This document shows, piece by piece, positions 8,365-52,102 of a stretch of DNA of 57,885 nucleotides. The position numbers and the translations under genes were made by a program. The notes beneath the pieces are model-generated. The model was not told where the DNA came from, did not search any database, and was given only the letters and a program-made list of their open reading frames with translations. Positions within the stretch are counted from its first letter, which is position 1, and every line of letters starts with the position of its first letter. This DNA comes from Desulfotomaculum sp. (GTDB lineage: Bacteria > Bacillota > Desulfotomaculia > Desulfotomaculales > Desulfallaceae). The DNA lies in NCBI GenBank assembly GCA_016841675.1, contig JAENYQ010000013.1, forward strand, positions 1 to 57,885, in the 5' to 3' direction.

Positions 8365-8442
8365 AAAAGGTGCGAGGGTACTGAAAAAAACTAGCTCCGT
8401 GTAGTTTTGGGATGAAAAGAAGTGAAATGAAGAATCTCTAAA

Positions 8443-8494
8443 AAAGGGGATAGGCTGCTTTTTCGTTTTTTGAAAAAGTTGCCTATCCCCTTTT
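8443..8494. repeat. GGGGAYAGG-family palindrome
   Basis: Arms aaaaggggataggc and gcctatcccctttt enclose an inner hairpin of A/T tracts. It is a variant (GATAGG) of the elements at 12864, 31942 and 52050. The run of T on either side could also make it a terminator. Confidence 0.75.
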
Positions 8495-8512
8495 GTGTTT
8501 TTATTGGTAAAG

Positions 8513-8549
8513 GTCAGTTAAAGTAAAAACTAGCCTGTCCCCTTTTTTT
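8513..8549 (+). repeat. Half palindrome, inverted partner of 10115-10161
   Basis: The sequence from gtcagttaaagtaaaaac to the tagcctgtcccc end equals the reverse complement of most of the 10115-10161 element. The two copies therefore frame the corC gene in inverted orientation. Confidence 0.75.
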
Positions 8550-8551
8550 GA

Positions 8552-9895
8552 TTAACCAGCTATGCTTATTTGTTGTGCAGTGTCATCGTTTAATACCCGC
8601 AATCTGATGCGGCGCACACGCAGACGGTGCATTTCCGCCACCTCCAGCTTATAACCGGGCAGTTCAACAACATCGCCCACCCGGGGGCGCTTGCCCAACC
8701 GGCCGAACATATACCCGCCCAGGGTGTCGTATTCTTCCTCGTCATCCACTGGCAGGTTGAATACCTCAGCCGCCTCTTCCAAAAGGAATCGACCATCTAC
8801 CAGATAGGTATTTTCATTCTCGGGTAGAACTTGCGGCTGCTCCTCGTCGAATTCGTCCTGAATTTCACCCACAAGTTCTTCCAGTATATTTTCCATAGTG
8901 ATGATACCGGCGGTGCCGCCGTATTCATCCACCACCAAGGCCATATGTTGGTGTTTTTGCTGGAACTTATGCATTAGTTGATCCAGGGGCATTCCTTCGG
9001 GAACCGGCATGATGTTGCGGCGCAACTCGTTCAATCCGGTCTCATCGTTCAAGCGGAATAGATCCTTGATGTGAATCAAACCCAATACGTTATCCCGGTC
9101 GCCGTCACATAAGGGGAAACGGGTGTGGCCGGATAACCGGGCGGTTTCAATATTCTTATCCAGGCTCTTGCTCAGGTCCAGGTATACCACCTCGGGCCGG
9201 GGCACCATGACGTCCCGGACAACTTTGTCCTCGAAATCGAACACGTTTTGCAGCAGGCGCCACTCTTCCTTGTCCAAATGGCCACCGCGATAACTTTCTG
9301 ATACCAGCATTTGCAGCTCTTCTTCACTGTGGCTTTCTTCGTGTTCGCTGGCAGGCCTGATTCCCGCAAGGCGTAGAATCCGGTTCGCGGTACCATTGAA
9401 CACAATAATTCCAGGGTAGAAAACGAAATAAGCCGCTCGCATAGGCATAGCCAACCACAGGGTGACAGCCTCAGCCCGCTGAATGGCCAGAGACTTGGGT
9501 ACCAGTTCCCCAAATACAACATGCATGAATGTCACCAAGGAAAAGGCGATAATGAATGATATGGAGTGGGTTGCTGTCGGGGAATTGACGCCCGCCAGGT
9601 GCAACAGCGGTTCCAACAACCTGGCCACTACCGGTTCGCCCAACCAGCCCAACCCCAGGCTGGAGATGGTAATACCCAACTGGCACACGGATAGGTAGGC
9701 GTCGATGTTATTAATGCAGCACTGGGCGATTTTGGCCATCCGGTTGCCTTCGTCCACCAACTGGGCCAGCCGCGTGGGTCTCACTTTAACAAATGAAAAT
9801 TCCGCTGCCACAAATAAACCGTTCAATAATATTAAGAACAGGGCCAGCAATATTTGCAGCGCGGTGATCATACTGAATGACATGCCGTCATCCAT
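8552..9895 (-). CDS. CNNM/CorC-HlyC family membrane protein (DUF21-CBS-CorC)
   Basis: A 447-aa protein with an N-terminal DUF21 transmembrane domain (residues about 1-190, including the NGLFVAAEFSFVKVR and CQLGITISSLGLGWLGEP motifs), a CBS pair (about 205-330, DVMVPRPEVVYLD and VVDEYGGTAGIITMEN) and a C-terminal CorC/HlyC domain (about 345-435, VDGRFLLEEAAEVF, TLGGYMFGRLGKRP). Members are Mg2+/Co2+ efflux or Mg2+ homeostasis proteins gated through the CBS pair by adenine nucleotides. Length and order are normal. The gene is isolated and framed by inverted repeat copies on both sides. Confidence 0.9.
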   Translation of the reverse strand: MDDGMSFSMITALQILLALFLILLNGLFVAAEFSFVKVRPTRLAQLVDEGNRMAKIAQCCINNIDAYLSVCQLGITISSLGLGWLGEPVVARLLEPLLHLAGVNSPTATHSISFIIAFSLVTFMHVVFGELVPKSLAIQRAEAVTLWLAMPMRAAYFVFYPGIIVFNGTANRILRLAGIRPASEHEESHSEEELQMLVSESYRGGHLDKEEWRLLQNVFDFEDKVVRDVMVPRPEVVYLDLSKSLDKNIETARLSGHTRFPLCDGDRDNVLGLIHIKDLFRLNDETGLNELRRNIMPVPEGMPLDQLMHKFQQKHQHMALVVDEYGGTAGIITMENILEELVGEIQDEFDEEQPQVLPENENTYLVDGRFLLEEAAEVFNLPVDDEEEYDTLGGYMFGRLGKRPRVGDVVELPGYKLEVAEMHRLRVRRIRLRVLNDDTAQQISIAG

Positions 9896-10114: not shown

Positions 10115-10161
10115 GTCAGCTAAAGTAAAAAGGGGACAGGCTAGTTTTTACTTTGACTGAC
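10115..10161 (-). repeat. GGGGACAGG palindrome overlapping the end of the MFS gene
   Basis: Arms gtcagctaaagtaaaaa and tttttactttgactgac (two mismatches) flank ggggacaggctag. The last codons and the stop of the MFS gene (…QSK-stop) lie inside the right arm. Confidence 0.8.
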
Positions 10162-12863: not shown

Positions 12864-12920
12864 AAAAAGGGGACAGGCAACTTTTTTCAAAAACCGAAAA
12901 AAGTAGCCTGTCCCCTTTTT
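12864..12920. repeat. GGGGACAGG palindrome
   Basis: Arms aaaaaggggacaggc and gcctgtccccttttt with an inner A/T-rich stem. It lies between the convergent ends of treT and treY and may double as their terminator. Confidence 0.85.
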
Positions 12921-12929
12921 GCCTGCCCC

Positions 12930-15900
12930 TTAAGCTCCGGCCAGCAACGCCACGGGGAAATGCTGCCATACTAAAGCCAGCGGCAGTACTTTGCGGCCTG
13001 GTGGAGCACTCATCCCCGGGCCAGCTTCGGCTGTGAGGGTTTCGCCTGTGAGTACGTTCCGCCACAGGCCGGGTGCTTCTTCGGGCAACACGAGGATGCT
13101 GTTGCCCCACGTTTCCTCACCCAGGGGGTGAATAAAACCGGGCGGTTCGCCCGCCGGTTTGTTCTTGTTCAGGTTACCAAAATGGGGTGAACTGCCGTCG
13201 CCCGTCCGCAACAGCGCAGTCAGCCTGGGTACCGCCACCAGGGCCCAGCTTTCGCCGGTATGCCTGGCAAATGCACAGGCGTGCCCGGCACCAGGACCTG
13301 ATGTTTCCAGTGGGATATATTCGCCGCGGGTAAAAATTTCGGGTCGGGTTCTGCGAAACTGCAGTGTTCGGTAAACCAGGAACAGCTTGACCCGACCGTC
13401 CGGCCAGGAGTCTAGTGTTTCCCGGGCCAGTACTGTAAGTGCCATCTTTCCGCCTGCTTCCCGCTCTTGGATCCGGGCTAGCATTTCGGACCGGGCCTTG
13501 AAGTCCACCGGGCGCCGGTTGTCGGGGTCCACCAGACTAAAGTCCCAGAGTTCGGTGCCCCGGTAAAAGTCAGGCACCCCCGGGGAGGTAACCTTCAATA
13601 ATACCTGAGCCAGCGAGCCCAGGGCACCGTAGTACGCAACCGATGCTTGGAACCGGAGAAAATCAGGTAAAAACAGGTTTCCCTGCCCGGGTTCCAGGAT
13701 GGATATGGTGAACCGCACCAGCGCCTTTTCATAGTTCTCGTCAGGCTGAAGCCATTTTGTGTGAATCCCGGCTTCCCGGGCTGCTTTGACCAGGTAGCCT
13801 GATAACCGTTTTTTAAAATCGGAAACCTCTTTTGTATGGAGAGGCCAGGCCCCTACCAGGGTCTGGTAAATGAACTGTTCCATATTCCCGCCGGGTACAG
13901 GGCGGCTGTAGTGTGCAGGCTTATGTCTGTCATTCCAGCACCGCCACGATTCTAAGCGCTCAGCCCACAGGGCGGGAATTTCCGACAGCACGTTGATGCG
14001 CATACGCACGTCCTCGCTGCGCTTGGTGTCGTGGGTGGATGTAGCGTTCATGGTATGAGGATGGCGCTCCAGCCGGTTCCGGTTGATGCGGTGGAATTCA
14101 GCCACCGATACTACTGCGGTATCTGGCTCGCTGCCGACCTCGTTAAGGGAGAGCAGCCGATTGTAGACGTACATAGCTGCGTCTTCCACCCCTTTGGCGG
14201 TAACCGGGCCGGTGAACTGCTGCCAGCGCATTACAAACTGCAGCCAGGCCTGCCGCTGTTCCTCGGGTTGGTTATCCCCGCATTCCAGTAGCATCACCCG
14301 GCGTAGAAAGCTGCTGGCCCGGGCGATGCCGGGGTTCCTTTGCAAGGCTAAAGCCAGTGCCTGTTCTATATACGCTCGGTCTTGGGCTGTCACTGTCAAA
14401 CTGCTTGTGTAGGTGCGATAGACCGGGAAAGAGGCGATTACCTCCACCATGGCTTCCTCCAGTTGGTCCAGGGTCAGGTCGAGGCCGTGCCGGTCCTGTT
14501 CTGCCAGGCGACCCAGCATTTTGGCCAGGGTGCGCATTTCTCCGCCAAATAAATCCGCCATGGCCCGCTTTTTAAGGCCGTACACCGTCTCCTCAAATGA
14601 AGCCGCCGAGCCGCCGTAGCGGCGGTATATGCCAGACAACTCGCCCAGTCCGGCATCGTGTACGAACAGCCCATTGACCAGGTTGAGAAAATCATACCCG
14701 CTGGTGCCGTGTACCGGCCACTCCTCGGGAATTTCCTCATACATTGGGGACATTCTTTGGCCCCAAAGCTCTGACCCCATTATTGGAGACATTCCTCGCC
14801 CCCAAAGTTTCTCTGACTCCATCATTGGGGACATTCCTCGACCCCAAAGTTTTTCTGACCCCAAATCTAAGGTGTGTCCCCTGACCGCTTTGGTGTGTCC
14901 CCTTCCCTTACCCGCCAAAATTTTTTCCACCACCACGTAAAAGCCGGGGTGCTCTCCCGAACCGGTCAGGCGTTCCTGGAGTCGGCAAAGGTAAGCCTTC
15001 GGATCATGCAGCCCGTCGATGTGATCAATGCGCAACCCGGAAACCTGACCAGTCCGGGCCAGGTGCATAACCAGATCGTGGGTAGCTGCAAAAACATGTT
15101 CATCCTCAACCCGCATCGATACCAATTCACTGATACTAAAGAACCGCCGGTAGTTAATTTCCCGGTTTGCCGTCCGCCAGAACGCCAAACGGTAGTGCTG
15201 CCCGGCCAGTAGCTTGTCCAGGTGCGCAAAGCTGCCCGGATCCCCCTTGATGCCGTTAATTGTCAGTAGAGCTTGCTCAACTAGAGCCCTGGTTTTTGAA
15301 TTGGTCTGGTAAAGCTGCCACAGCCGGCCTGTAATTTTTAGCCATGCTGCCATGTACCCGGGGTCGCTGTAGGGCGGCAGTTGGTCCAGATTAGCTACTA
15401 GTTCCTCGAGCTCGTGGGGTACGGGACCAGGGGCCAGGATTTGGCGGTATGAATCGGGCCTGACAGGCAGTATAGTCCCGTAGTACTGCACTCCAAAGCC
15501 ATTCTTTGTTAGCACCAGGGTAAATTCCCCATTTTCCAGCGCCTGGCCGTAGGGTGAACCTAAAATAGGCAGCAGTACTTTGCCGGCCATCCCGGGTCGG
15601 ATGGGCTGCCAGTCGAGATCAAAGTAGCAAGCATAGGGTGACTCAGGCCCATGCCGGAGCAGATCCGCCCACCAAGGGTTTTCGACGTCGGCGGCCATGT
15701 GGTTGGGCACGATGTCCAACACCAGCCCCATATCCCGCTGCCGTAAGGCTTCGGTTAGTTTAAAGAACGCTTCATTCCCACCCAGTTCTCTGTTTAACTG
15801 GGTGGGATCCGCTAAGTCGTAACCGTGACCGCTGCCTTCCCTGGCCTGCAGCAGGGGGGAAGCATAAATGTCGGTTACACCCAGCTGATGCAGGTACGGC

Positions 15901-15983
15901 ACCAGGGTTAGGGCGTCATTCAGGCTGAACTCGCCGTTGAATTGAAACCGGTAGGTAGCCGAGGGAATCCGTAGCTCTGCCAT
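12930..15983 (-). CDS. treY: Malto-oligosyltrehalose synthase (TreY, GH13)
   Basis: A 1017-aa enzyme that rearranges the terminal alpha-1,4 bond of maltodextrins to alpha-1,1, giving maltooligosyl trehalose for TreZ. The N-terminus IPSATYRFQFNGEF, the GH13 regions YASPLLQAREGSGHGYD, DIVPNHMA, SGLRIDHIDGLHDP and the C-terminal TSPGVPDFYRGTELWD are all present, so the catalytic residues are intact. Between the strand ending VVEKILA and the EEIPEEWPVHGTSGYDF segment, normally a few residues apart, about 59 residues are inserted (roughly residues 357-416), made of a 14-residue tandem repeat. It is the last gene of malQ-treZ-GH57-treY and starts 1 bp from the GH57 stop. Confidence 0.93.
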   Translation of the reverse strand: MAELRIPSATYRFQFNGEFSLNDALTLVPYLHQLGVTDIYASPLLQAREGSGHGYDLADPTQLNRELGGNEAFFKLTEALRQRDMGLVLDIVPNHMAADVENPWWADLLRHGPESPYACYFDLDWQPIRPGMAGKVLLPILGSPYGQALENGEFTLVLTKNGFGVQYYGTILPVRPDSYRQILAPGPVPHELEELVANLDQLPPYSDPGYMAAWLKITGRLWQLYQTNSKTRALVEQALLTINGIKGDPGSFAHLDKLLAGQHYRLAFWRTANREINYRRFFSISELVSMRVEDEHVFAATHDLVMHLARTGQVSGLRIDHIDGLHDPKAYLCRLQERLTGSGEHPGFYVVVEKILAGKGRGHTKAVRGHTLDLGSEKLWGRGMSPMMESEKLWGRGMSPIMGSELWGQRMSPMYEEIPEEWPVHGTSGYDFLNLVNGLFVHDAGLGELSGIYRRYGGSAASFEETVYGLKKRAMADLFGGEMRTLAKMLGRLAEQDRHGLDLTLDQLEEAMVEVIASFPVYRTYTSSLTVTAQDRAYIEQALALALQRNPGIARASSFLRRVMLLECGDNQPEEQRQAWLQFVMRWQQFTGPVTAKGVEDAAMYVYNRLLSLNEVGSEPDTAVVSVAEFHRINRNRLERHPHTMNATSTHDTKRSEDVRMRINVLSEIPALWAERLESWRCWNDRHKPAHYSRPVPGGNMEQFIYQTLVGAWPLHTKEVSDFKKRLSGYLVKAAREAGIHTKWLQPDENYEKALVRFTISILEPGQGNLFLPDFLRFQASVAYYGALGSLAQVLLKVTSPGVPDFYRGTELWDFSLVDPDNRRPVDFKARSEMLARIQEREAGGKMALTVLARETLDSWPDGRVKLFLVYRTLQFRRTRPEIFTRGEYIPLETSGPGAGHACAFARHTGESWALVAVPRLTALLRTGDGSSPHFGNLNKNKPAGEPPGFIHPLGEETWGNSILVLPEEAPGLWRNVLTGETLTAEAGPGMSAPPGRKVLPLALVWQHFPVALLAGA
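14743..14905 (-). repeat. In-frame tandem repeat insertion inside treY
   Basis: Three units of 39, 42 and 42 bp, each starting attgggGACATTC and containing ccccaaag…tctgacccc, begin at 14743, 14782 and 14824. They are followed by two shorter ggtgtgtcccc words up to about 14905. All unit lengths are multiples of three. The encoded unit is SEKLWGRGMSPMM with variants. The ggggaca/tgtcccc words tie it to the GGGGACA repeat group. Confidence 0.85.
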
Positions 15984-39020: not shown

Positions 39021-39117
39021 ATATACGATAGCGGACACACCTCAGCTAAAAGGTCAAATACTTTGGGGTCGTGGAATGTCCCTAACGAAAGAATTATTTT
39101 AAAAAGGAGGTATGTTA

Positions 39118-41003: not shown

Positions 41004-43040
41004 TTGTTTTCCTGGTTAAAGACACTGTCTAAATTCATCATGTATCAAAAGCCACAGCCTGCACCGTCTGTGTTTGAGTCCGGCATTGAAGACAGACCGC
41101 TAGAAGAGGGGGAAAAGTCCAAGGCCAAGTCCAAGGCCAAGTCCAAGGCCAAGTCCAAGTCCAAGGCCAAGTCCAAGTCCAAGTCCAAGTCCAAGGCTGG
41201 TGGTAACGGCGGTAGTGATACAGATAGCAACGATTCCGGCCAAGGTAACCAGGATCAACACCAGTTAAGAGATAGTGAGCAAAACAACCGGAAAAACGGT
41301 AGTCGTAAACGGAACAGTCGGAGGGGAAAACCGCGCAACGCAGCGATACAGAAAAAATATTCGGACAAGGTTGCAGAAAACCAGGATATAGACCAGATAT
41401 TGAACCAAAAGGTTGAGCTTTCCTACCGCCTGGAAGAGAACAAACAGGTGCTGGAAAAGCTTTTTCGAGTGCCCGAAAACAAAGACGCGGTGTTTCGCAG
41501 TTTATCTATCGGTACCGAACCGCCCGCCCAGGCGATGCTGGTGTTTATCGACGGCATCACCAACGCCCAGGTGCAAAACCTGGCGGTGCTGCAGCCCCTG
41601 ATGCTGCTTTCCGGCGCCCGGGATATTCGCCAAAATAGGAAAGGGGACACACCTGCTGAAGCCGGGGTATTCCTTCAGGGACAGGAATGTCCCCGATTAG
41701 GGCCCGGTAACGGGGAAAACAAGGAAACGGCAGTATATAAAGACTTTTTTGACCGGGTGAAGCAGGCTGTATTGCCCAACAACCAGGTAGCCGAAGGGCG
41801 CACCTATGACCAGGTTGTTTACGATGTGCTGAACGGCAACAGTGCGCTGTTCATTGAGGGGTATAACCAGGCGCTGCTGCTGGAAACCAAGGGCTGGCAT
41901 TTCCGCAGCGTATCTCCTCCTCAGGTGGAGGCGGTGATCCGGGGACCTCAGGAGGCGTTTACCGAAATGCTCAGGGTGAACACCTCCCTGGTGCGCAAGA
42001 TTATTCACCGTTCCTCCCTGGTGACCGAATTCATCAAGGTGGGGTACAACGCCCCCATGCAGTGCGCCGTTATGTATGTGGCGGACCTGGCCAACCCCGA
42101 CCTGGTTAAGGAAGTCAAGCGGCGCCTTGAGTCTATTAGGGCTGACCAAACGTATGAAACCGGCCTGGCGGAGCAGATGATTGAGGATAACCCCTTGCAC
42201 ATGGTGCCTCAAGTTTTGACCACCGAACGGCCCGACCGGGTGGCCGCCAGCCTGCTGGATGGGAAAGTTGCAGTGCTGATGGATGGCAACCCCTTTGTCA
42301 TGATCATGCCCTGCACCTTTTTCAATCTGATGCAGTCCCCGGAAGATGCCTACGTGCGCTGGCCCTTCGGAGCATTTATGAGGCTGATCAGGTACGCCGG
42401 CCTTTTCCTGGCCCTGCTGTTACCGGCTCACTATGTGGCTATTGTAGCTTACCACCAGGAATTTATCCCCACCGACCTGCTGATGGCTATCACCGGCGCC
42501 AGGGAAAAGGTTCCTTTCCCTTCCATCGTCGAGGTACTAATTATGGAGGCGGCTTTTGAGCTAATCCGAGAGGCCGGGGTCAGGATCCCAGGCACCATCG
42601 GAACCACCCTGGGTATTGTAGGGGCTCTGATCCTAGGCCAGGCCGCGGTGGCCGCCAACATCGTCAGCCCAATCCTGATTATCGTGGTGGCGGTGACTGC
42701 TCTGGGTTCCTTTGCCATACCCAATTACTCCTTTTCCCTATCCATCAGGCTACTGCGCTTTGTTTATATTCTTTTTGCCTCGCTGTCCGGTCTGCTGGGT
42801 ATTCTGGTGGGAGTTTTCATCCACGTGGGTGTAATGAGCACTGTGAAATCATTTGGGGTACCCTTTCTGGCCCCCGCTGCGCCGGTCACCAGAAAAGGAC
42901 GCGATTATTTTATGCGGGGCCCGGTGTGGCAGCAGGAAACCAGGCCCGATTACTTGGACCCGCTTAAAACAAAGCGCCAACCACAGTTTAGTCGCGGCTG
43001 GCTTAACGACGGCGACGACAAGGGGGGGGCAGAGCGCTAA
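41004..43040 (+). CDS. Spore germination protein, GerAA family, with Lys/Ser repeat (operon 2)
   Basis: A 678-aa A subunit, about 120 residues longer than the copy in operon 1. TTG 41004 follows GGGGAGG. Two extras explain the length: a SKAK/SKSK tract near residues 38-65 followed by a basic, Gly/Asn-rich region, and an insertion within the soluble domain around residues 212-235 (GDTPAEAGVFLQGQECPRLG). The core is normal: VFIDGITNAQVQ, GPQEAFTEMLRVNTSLVRK, DRVAASLLDGKVAVLMDG, HQEFIPTDLLMAI, five membrane segments. The very basic N-terminus would face the core side of the inner membrane and could touch DNA or dipicolinate-rich cytosol; that is speculation. Confidence 0.92.
   Translation: MFSWLKTLSKFIMYQKPQPAPSVFESGIEDRPLEEGEKSKAKSKAKSKAKSKSKAKSKSKSKSKAGGNGGSDTDSNDSGQGNQDQHQLRDSEQNNRKNGSRKRNSRRGKPRNAAIQKKYSDKVAENQDIDQILNQKVELSYRLEENKQVLEKLFRVPENKDAVFRSLSIGTEPPAQAMLVFIDGITNAQVQNLAVLQPLMLLSGARDIRQNRKGDTPAEAGVFLQGQECPRLGPGNGENKETAVYKDFFDRVKQAVLPNNQVAEGRTYDQVVYDVLNGNSALFIEGYNQALLLETKGWHFRSVSPPQVEAVIRGPQEAFTEMLRVNTSLVRKIIHRSSLVTEFIKVGYNAPMQCAVMYVADLANPDLVKEVKRRLESIRADQTYETGLAEQMIEDNPLHMVPQVLTTERPDRVAASLLDGKVAVLMDGNPFVMIMPCTFFNLMQSPEDAYVRWPFGAFMRLIRYAGLFLALLLPAHYVAIVAYHQEFIPTDLLMAITGAREKVPFPSIVEVLIMEAAFELIREAGVRIPGTIGTTLGIVGALILGQAAVAANIVSPILIIVVAVTALGSFAIPNYSFSLSIRLLRFVYILFASLSGLLGILVGVFIHVGVMSTVKSFGVPFLAPAAPVTRKGRDYFMRGPVWQQETRPDYLDPLKTKRQPQFSRGWLNDGDDKGGAER
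41116..41195 (+). repeat. Hexanucleotide tandem repeat in gerA 2
   Basis: Alternating tccaag and gccaag units, about 13 in a row, encode the SKAKSKAK tract. Such perfect hexamers are prone to slippage but always keep the frame. Confidence 0.9.
41638..41697 (+). repeat. GGGGACA insertion inside gerA 2
   Basis: The stretch from aggaaaggggacac to aggaatgtcccc is bounded by ggggaca and tgtcccc and has an inner palindrome (ctgaag/cttcag). It is in frame and absent from the operon 1 paralogue at the matching position. Confidence 0.6.
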
Positions 43041-52049: not shown

Positions 52050-52102
52050 AAAAGGGGACAGGCTGCTTTTTCGTTTTTTGAAAAAGATGCTTGTCCCCTT
52101 TT
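52050..52102. repeat. GGGGACAGG palindrome
   Basis: Arms aaaaggggacaggc and gcttgtcccctttt with the inner A/T-rich stem (tttttcgttttttgaaaaa), directly after the clpX terminator. Confidence 0.85.

Follow-up and report, generated by a model that had tools for sequence, protein, structure and literature searches.

The treY gene of this Desulfotomaculum genome carries an in-frame insert that is most probably (we would put it near 90%) a copy of a small dispersed palindromic element, which would have entered treY on a single occasion and afterwards grown here and shrunk in a relative of the same genus. The gene lies at positions 12930-15983 on the minus strand of the window, by which we mean the whole analysed stretch of 57,885 nucleotides. 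It is an intact ORF for a protein of 1017 residues, which scores 905.9 bits against the NCBIfam equivalog TIGR02401 (cut-off 498.65) and preserves the VVEKIL motif, with E353 invariant, and thus belongs to the GH13 malto-oligosyltrehalose synthases. Alignment to 21 relatives and codon-level comparison place the insert at 14739-14912 (minus strand), where it adds 174 bp and 58 residues (358-415). It begins five residues past E353, the Glu of VVEKIL, which we take to be the general acid from what is known of GH13 enzymes. A low-confidence AlphaFold model based on six sequences (mean pLDDT 57.8, about 20 within the insert) hints weakly that the insert may be a loop without regular structure.

Along the treY sense, the insert reads as parts of a hairpin element (two heads, one core and three tails) in the order head, head, core, tail, core-tail, core-tail. 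Heads with the sequence GGGGACACACC occupy 14892-14902 and, 21 bp further on, 14871-14881, and the sole complete element runs for 55 bp from head to tail at 14827-14881 (all minus strand). Three tandem core-plus-tail units lie at 14742-14863 (minus strand), which is the top-scoring tandem array that TRF finds in the window (period 42, 3.0 copies, score 167); a repeat search gives spacings of 39 and 42. Units of 39, 42 and 42 bp with the frame kept had been proposed in a first-pass annotation of this DNA, and both points agree with these results and with the intact ORF. The same annotation had placed a segment of about 59 residues at 14743-14905, which is real but slightly too narrow. Its 14-residue repeat is indeed tandem, but the units are better given as SEKLWGRGMSPMME, SEKLWGRGMSPIMG and a shortened SELWGQRMSPMY. 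The words ggggacatt and tgtcccc, which it recorded merely as words, do belong to the element and are in fact the two heads, which read GGTGTGTCCCC on the plus strand. Its link from the insert to GGGGACA words also stands: a similarity search with the insert found 74 similar places across the source genome, and the window holds 18 copies of GGGGACA, compared with 9.7 +/- 3.0 in shuffled sequences, none of which (0 of 100) reached 18.

Among 21 other TreY proteins of the same order, 19, including the distant ones, align without any such segment. A genome from another genus of the same family (G010) has one unit, HKKRGHTSDLGSELGGRGMSPTN, of about 63 bp at exactly the insert site. A genome of the same genus (G002), which matches a contig of Peptococcaceae bacterium BRH_c8a, has a short stretch there, GGAATGTCAAATAATGAAAGGGG, which resembles a tail-head junction after erosion and may thus be a remnant of the insert. 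These comparisons bear out the first-pass expectations that the family normally has a short loop here (a full unit is found only in G010) and that the segment is not conserved in distant species, and they show that unit number varies (several units in the source genome, one in G010 and the remnant-like stretch in G002). They also support its central claim that a dispersed repeat family created new protein sequence in TreY, as relatives lack the segment and the element occurs genome-wide. The treY genes of the source genome, G002 and G010 form one clade (support 99/97) in a tree that omitted sparsely filled columns and hence most of the insert, so one insertion event suffices. The simplest reading, and the one that fits best, would be a single ancestral treY insertion that was later expanded or eroded. 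Over about 54 nt, the inserts of the source genome and G010 are approximately 93% identical, and the whole genes 75%. The insert value equals that of the most conserved 18-codon windows of treY, and the excess similarity would also fit gene conversion or a second hit at the same place.

The element consists of a head GGGGACACACC, a core and a tail GGAATGTCCCC, and is mainly 31 or 51-53 bp long, with nested forms in addition. Reading the stretches around similarity and pattern matches gave at least 83 loci in the source genome, 17 of which lie inside long ORFs. Of 95 head-tail cores, 28 are 31 bp and 48 are 51-53 bp long; nested head-head-tail-tail forms reach about 73 bp. Stable hairpins, built of two inverted REP-like arms, are predicted for the 31-, 52- and 73-base consensus forms. 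Conserved flanks precede (AGGAAA) and follow (AAYKTATG) the core, and some 40-bp copies have GGAAA in the loop. One intergenic copy is in the window (39031-39083, plus strand). Of 60 relatives, 19 have the arm pattern, as do 14 members, source genome included, of a sample of 398 genomes from the phylum, with arms conserved and cores variable; searches of plasmids, and of viral contigs for the exact short form, returned no matches. A distant member of the phylum has a tandem array of six identical 49-bp elements with the same arm type, spaced by exactly 60 bp (G143:C17:1106571-1106919). We considered whether the open reading frames of the element reflect adaptation to coding and rejected this, as the four of six frames that are open when the 31- and 52-bp forms are taken with their flanks do not exceed dinucleotide shuffles (fractions 0.58 and 0.37).

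Pfam and NCBIfam matches gave names to most of the 17 intragenic loci: treY, a gerA-family gene, purS-purL, a bPH2 protein, mfd, an Orn/Lys/Arg decarboxylase, livF, ligA, stiP, topB, addA, wecB, rusA and an AAA-ATPase-like ORF. No clear name could be given to the others, of which L129 is perhaps not a gene at all. The first-pass annotation was right about treY but underestimated the family, which has in-frame copies in some fifteen further genes. The frames and orientations used vary between genes, giving peptides such as RGHTS..GGMSP, KGDTP..EECPQ and KGTHL..NVPN. The copy in the GerA-family spore germination gene lies in the window at 41643-41694 (plus strand), within the ORF at 41004-43040 and with PF03323 matching across it. 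Its peptide, RKGDTPAEAGVFLQGQECPRLG, is the same in G002 and absent in G001, G010 and G013. The same ORF has a hexamer array (AAGTCC, 13.5 copies) at 41115-41195, which encodes a KSKAKS-rich stretch near the N-terminus. Similar inserts occur in G002 in an RsmB-like ORF (before DAPCSG) and a corrinoid-protein-activator-like ORF, and in G013 and G015 in PEP-synthase-like ORFs, all named by reading the sequence. In three of the PEP-synthase-like loci (L095 and L113 in G013, L094 in G015), different insertions lie directly ahead of one and the same motif, xxRPITTL/ARPVTAL, or close to it, and this may be a hot spot for the element.

For purL, mfd, topB, ligA, livF, addA, stiP and the decarboxylase gene, orthologous sites are empty or hold a smaller insert. 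The one fully clean empty site is in mfd, where G002 reads GAGGAAACAATT and the source genome GAGGATA, GGGGACACACCTCCTGCGGAGGAATGTCCC and CAATT, a net gain of 30 bp at GGAAA^CAATT without target duplication; the other sites differ by further small changes. At the topB site, G002 and G010 have no element and carry GGGAAACAA as natural sequence, and the source gene is 177 bp longer than that of G002. Units in purL number zero in G001, G013 and G010, one (42 bp) in G002 and two in the source genome. The source livF has three units, two of them identical (42 bp) and the third a variant, with a possible remnant in G010, and addA has a nest in G002 and a larger one in the source genome. In ligA, the source genome has 84 bp more than G001 just before YVVELKIDG, which includes the catalytic motif KIDG, and G002 has a shorter stretch. 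No other gene in this genome (rated completeness 99.98%) has an NAD-ligase adenylation domain, so LigA presumably tolerates its insert, unless a ligase of another kind stands in for it. The first-pass suggestion that the TreY insert probably leaves the enzyme active gains indirect support from this ligA case. At or near the element sites of the G002 ligA (L194) and decarboxylase (L244) genes are in-frame stretches of about 18 bp, TTGGGGACAGGGG..TTTCC, that look like collapsed copies. None of the intragenic copies read disrupts its host frame: they contain no stops, and their net lengths are 30, 42, 57, 63, 84 and 177 bp. A heuristic search found no clear frame-breaking copy within a single gene; its six candidates were assigned, by their end sequences, to junctions between two genes. 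This lack is what would be expected if selection removes such copies.

The treY site could also have been hit twice, independently in the source/G002 lineage and in G010, if the element preferentially targets the sequence immediately following VVEKIL. The element does seem to favor GGAAA, and the similarity of the two inserts, which equals that of the best conserved treY windows, would allow for it; however, the three genes form one clade for which one event is enough, and we consider parallel insertion unlikely. Less likely again is that the insert is a loop kept by selection because it changes the enzyme. Its retention in two genera and its place five residues after an invariant Glu could be read that way, but most of it is gone in G002, the number of units varies widely and the same peptide appears in unrelated proteins, which indicates that the DNA, and not the protein, is the unit.

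Translation itself may be questioned, as ribosomes hop over hairpins in the byp elements of yeast mitochondria, and the element might similarly be bypassed, or be removed from the RNA or the protein. The strong predicted hairpins and the insertions near catalytic motifs of enzymes that should be working are in line with this, but bypassing needs neither a kept frame nor freedom from stops, both of which hold for every intragenic copy read, and the candidate frame breaks were judged to fall between genes, so we regard an untranslated element as very improbable. We found no support for an ordinary TreY-family loop or an assembly artefact; the 19 relatives without the segment contradict the former, the related unit at the matching site of an independent genome speaks against the latter, and either reading is scarcely credible.

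We therefore return to a single entry of a mobile hairpin. The element would have entered treY in the common ancestor of the source, G002 and G010 genes, then grown in the source genome through duplication of parts and shrunk in G002. More generally, a hairpin GGGGACACACC...GGAATGTCCCC (31 bp, 51-53 bp or nested) would settle next to GGAAA; the copies within genes have net lengths divisible by three and a stop-free frame in use, so that translation would run through them and add a loop to the protein, one that TreY may bear near-neutrally. Nested growth could come from insertion into the element's own loop, with the loop GGAAA of some 40-bp copies as target. The insertion, its frame, the shared treY site, the other genes, the empty orthologous sites, the tandem and nested growth and the apparent loss in sister genomes can be read from the compared sequences. 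We infer movement from the pattern, because a transposase flanked by the element was not found; the pattern suggests single-strand transposition in trans by a Y1/RAYT-type enzyme. IS200/IS605-type elements insert next to a fixed short target without duplication; the one clean site, in mfd, may hint at such movement, and in topB of G002 and G010 GGGAAACAA is natural sequence.

Among the scanned loci of the source genome and about 25 others (a subset of the Y1 loci), no RAYT/Y1 gene is directly flanked by the element. RAYT genes in the examined genomes have flanking hairpins with similar feet (GGGGACAGGC, GGGGACGGTTCT and GGGGTCAGGC), none with GGGGACACACC. Another hairpin family, AAAAAGGGGACAGGC..GCCTGTCCCCTTTTT, has two long perfect members in the window, at 12865-12922 and 52050-52100, and hairpins of this type flank a RAYT gene elsewhere in the source genome (L181). 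Single arms of that family (GGGGACAGGC) lie at 8440-8540 and 10120-10160, on either side of a CNNM/CorC-type gene (8552-9895).

Rickettsia palindromic elements (RPEs), as parts of the literature describe them, are dispersed palindromes of about 150 bp that lie in frame in unrelated protein genes and are translated (Ogata 2000, 2002, as summarized in PMC10969869 and PMC3733652), and those checked in R. conorii have CGTC at the end (PMC3733652). The Desulfotomaculum element is likewise a dispersed palindrome in frame within many unrelated protein genes, but it is 31-73 bp long (cores of 31 and 51-53 bp), is from Firmicutes and has copies nested within copies; unlike both RPEs and CGTC REPs, it is without CGTC and is flanked by AGGAAA and AAYKTATG. 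Intragenic GTAG and CGTC REPs are 20-40 bp hairpins that also lie within genes, often those for replication and repair, including a DNA ligase gene of O. terrae (PMC3733652). The element shares this leaning toward replication and repair genes, but its flank profile has neither GTAG nor CGTC at the hairpin foot and, in contrast to GTAG REPs and REPINs, it flanks no scanned RAYT gene. Like REPINs, it has two inverted arms that start with GGGGAC and form one hairpin. Its feet resemble those of the RAYT-flanking hairpins, whereas the second half of its arm differs and no RAYT of matching type was found. In cyanobacteria, small dispersed repeats are tiny mobile repeats that enter genes and one another, and the element may resemble them in this. 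A search of the open-license literature for the arm sequences gave 16 matches, none with a title that concerns bacterial repeats.

Judged by its sequence, the element is a distinct family with RPE/REP-like behavior, whose end tags differ from those of both. We think it somewhat probable that this is a previously undescribed family of self-nesting hairpins, patchy in Firmicutes, with conserved arms and variable cores, that is routinely in frame in essential and repair genes and is a continuing source of loops near active sites. Palindromic repeats that lie in frame are familiar chiefly from Rickettsia and certain other Gram-negatives, and the same behavior would now extend, through a distinct family, to the Desulfotomaculales and other Firmicutes. 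Here mobile DNA appears to have been turned into new protein stretches next to catalytic sites, and orthologues display the stages: empty, one unit, several units, nested and eroded. The sole NAD-ligase gene, with its insert before KIDG, is a natural test of the tolerance of an essential kind of enzyme for a foreign peptide, and the element-bearing genes would make it possible to test directly, by assay and proteomics, how mobile DNA is turned into protein.
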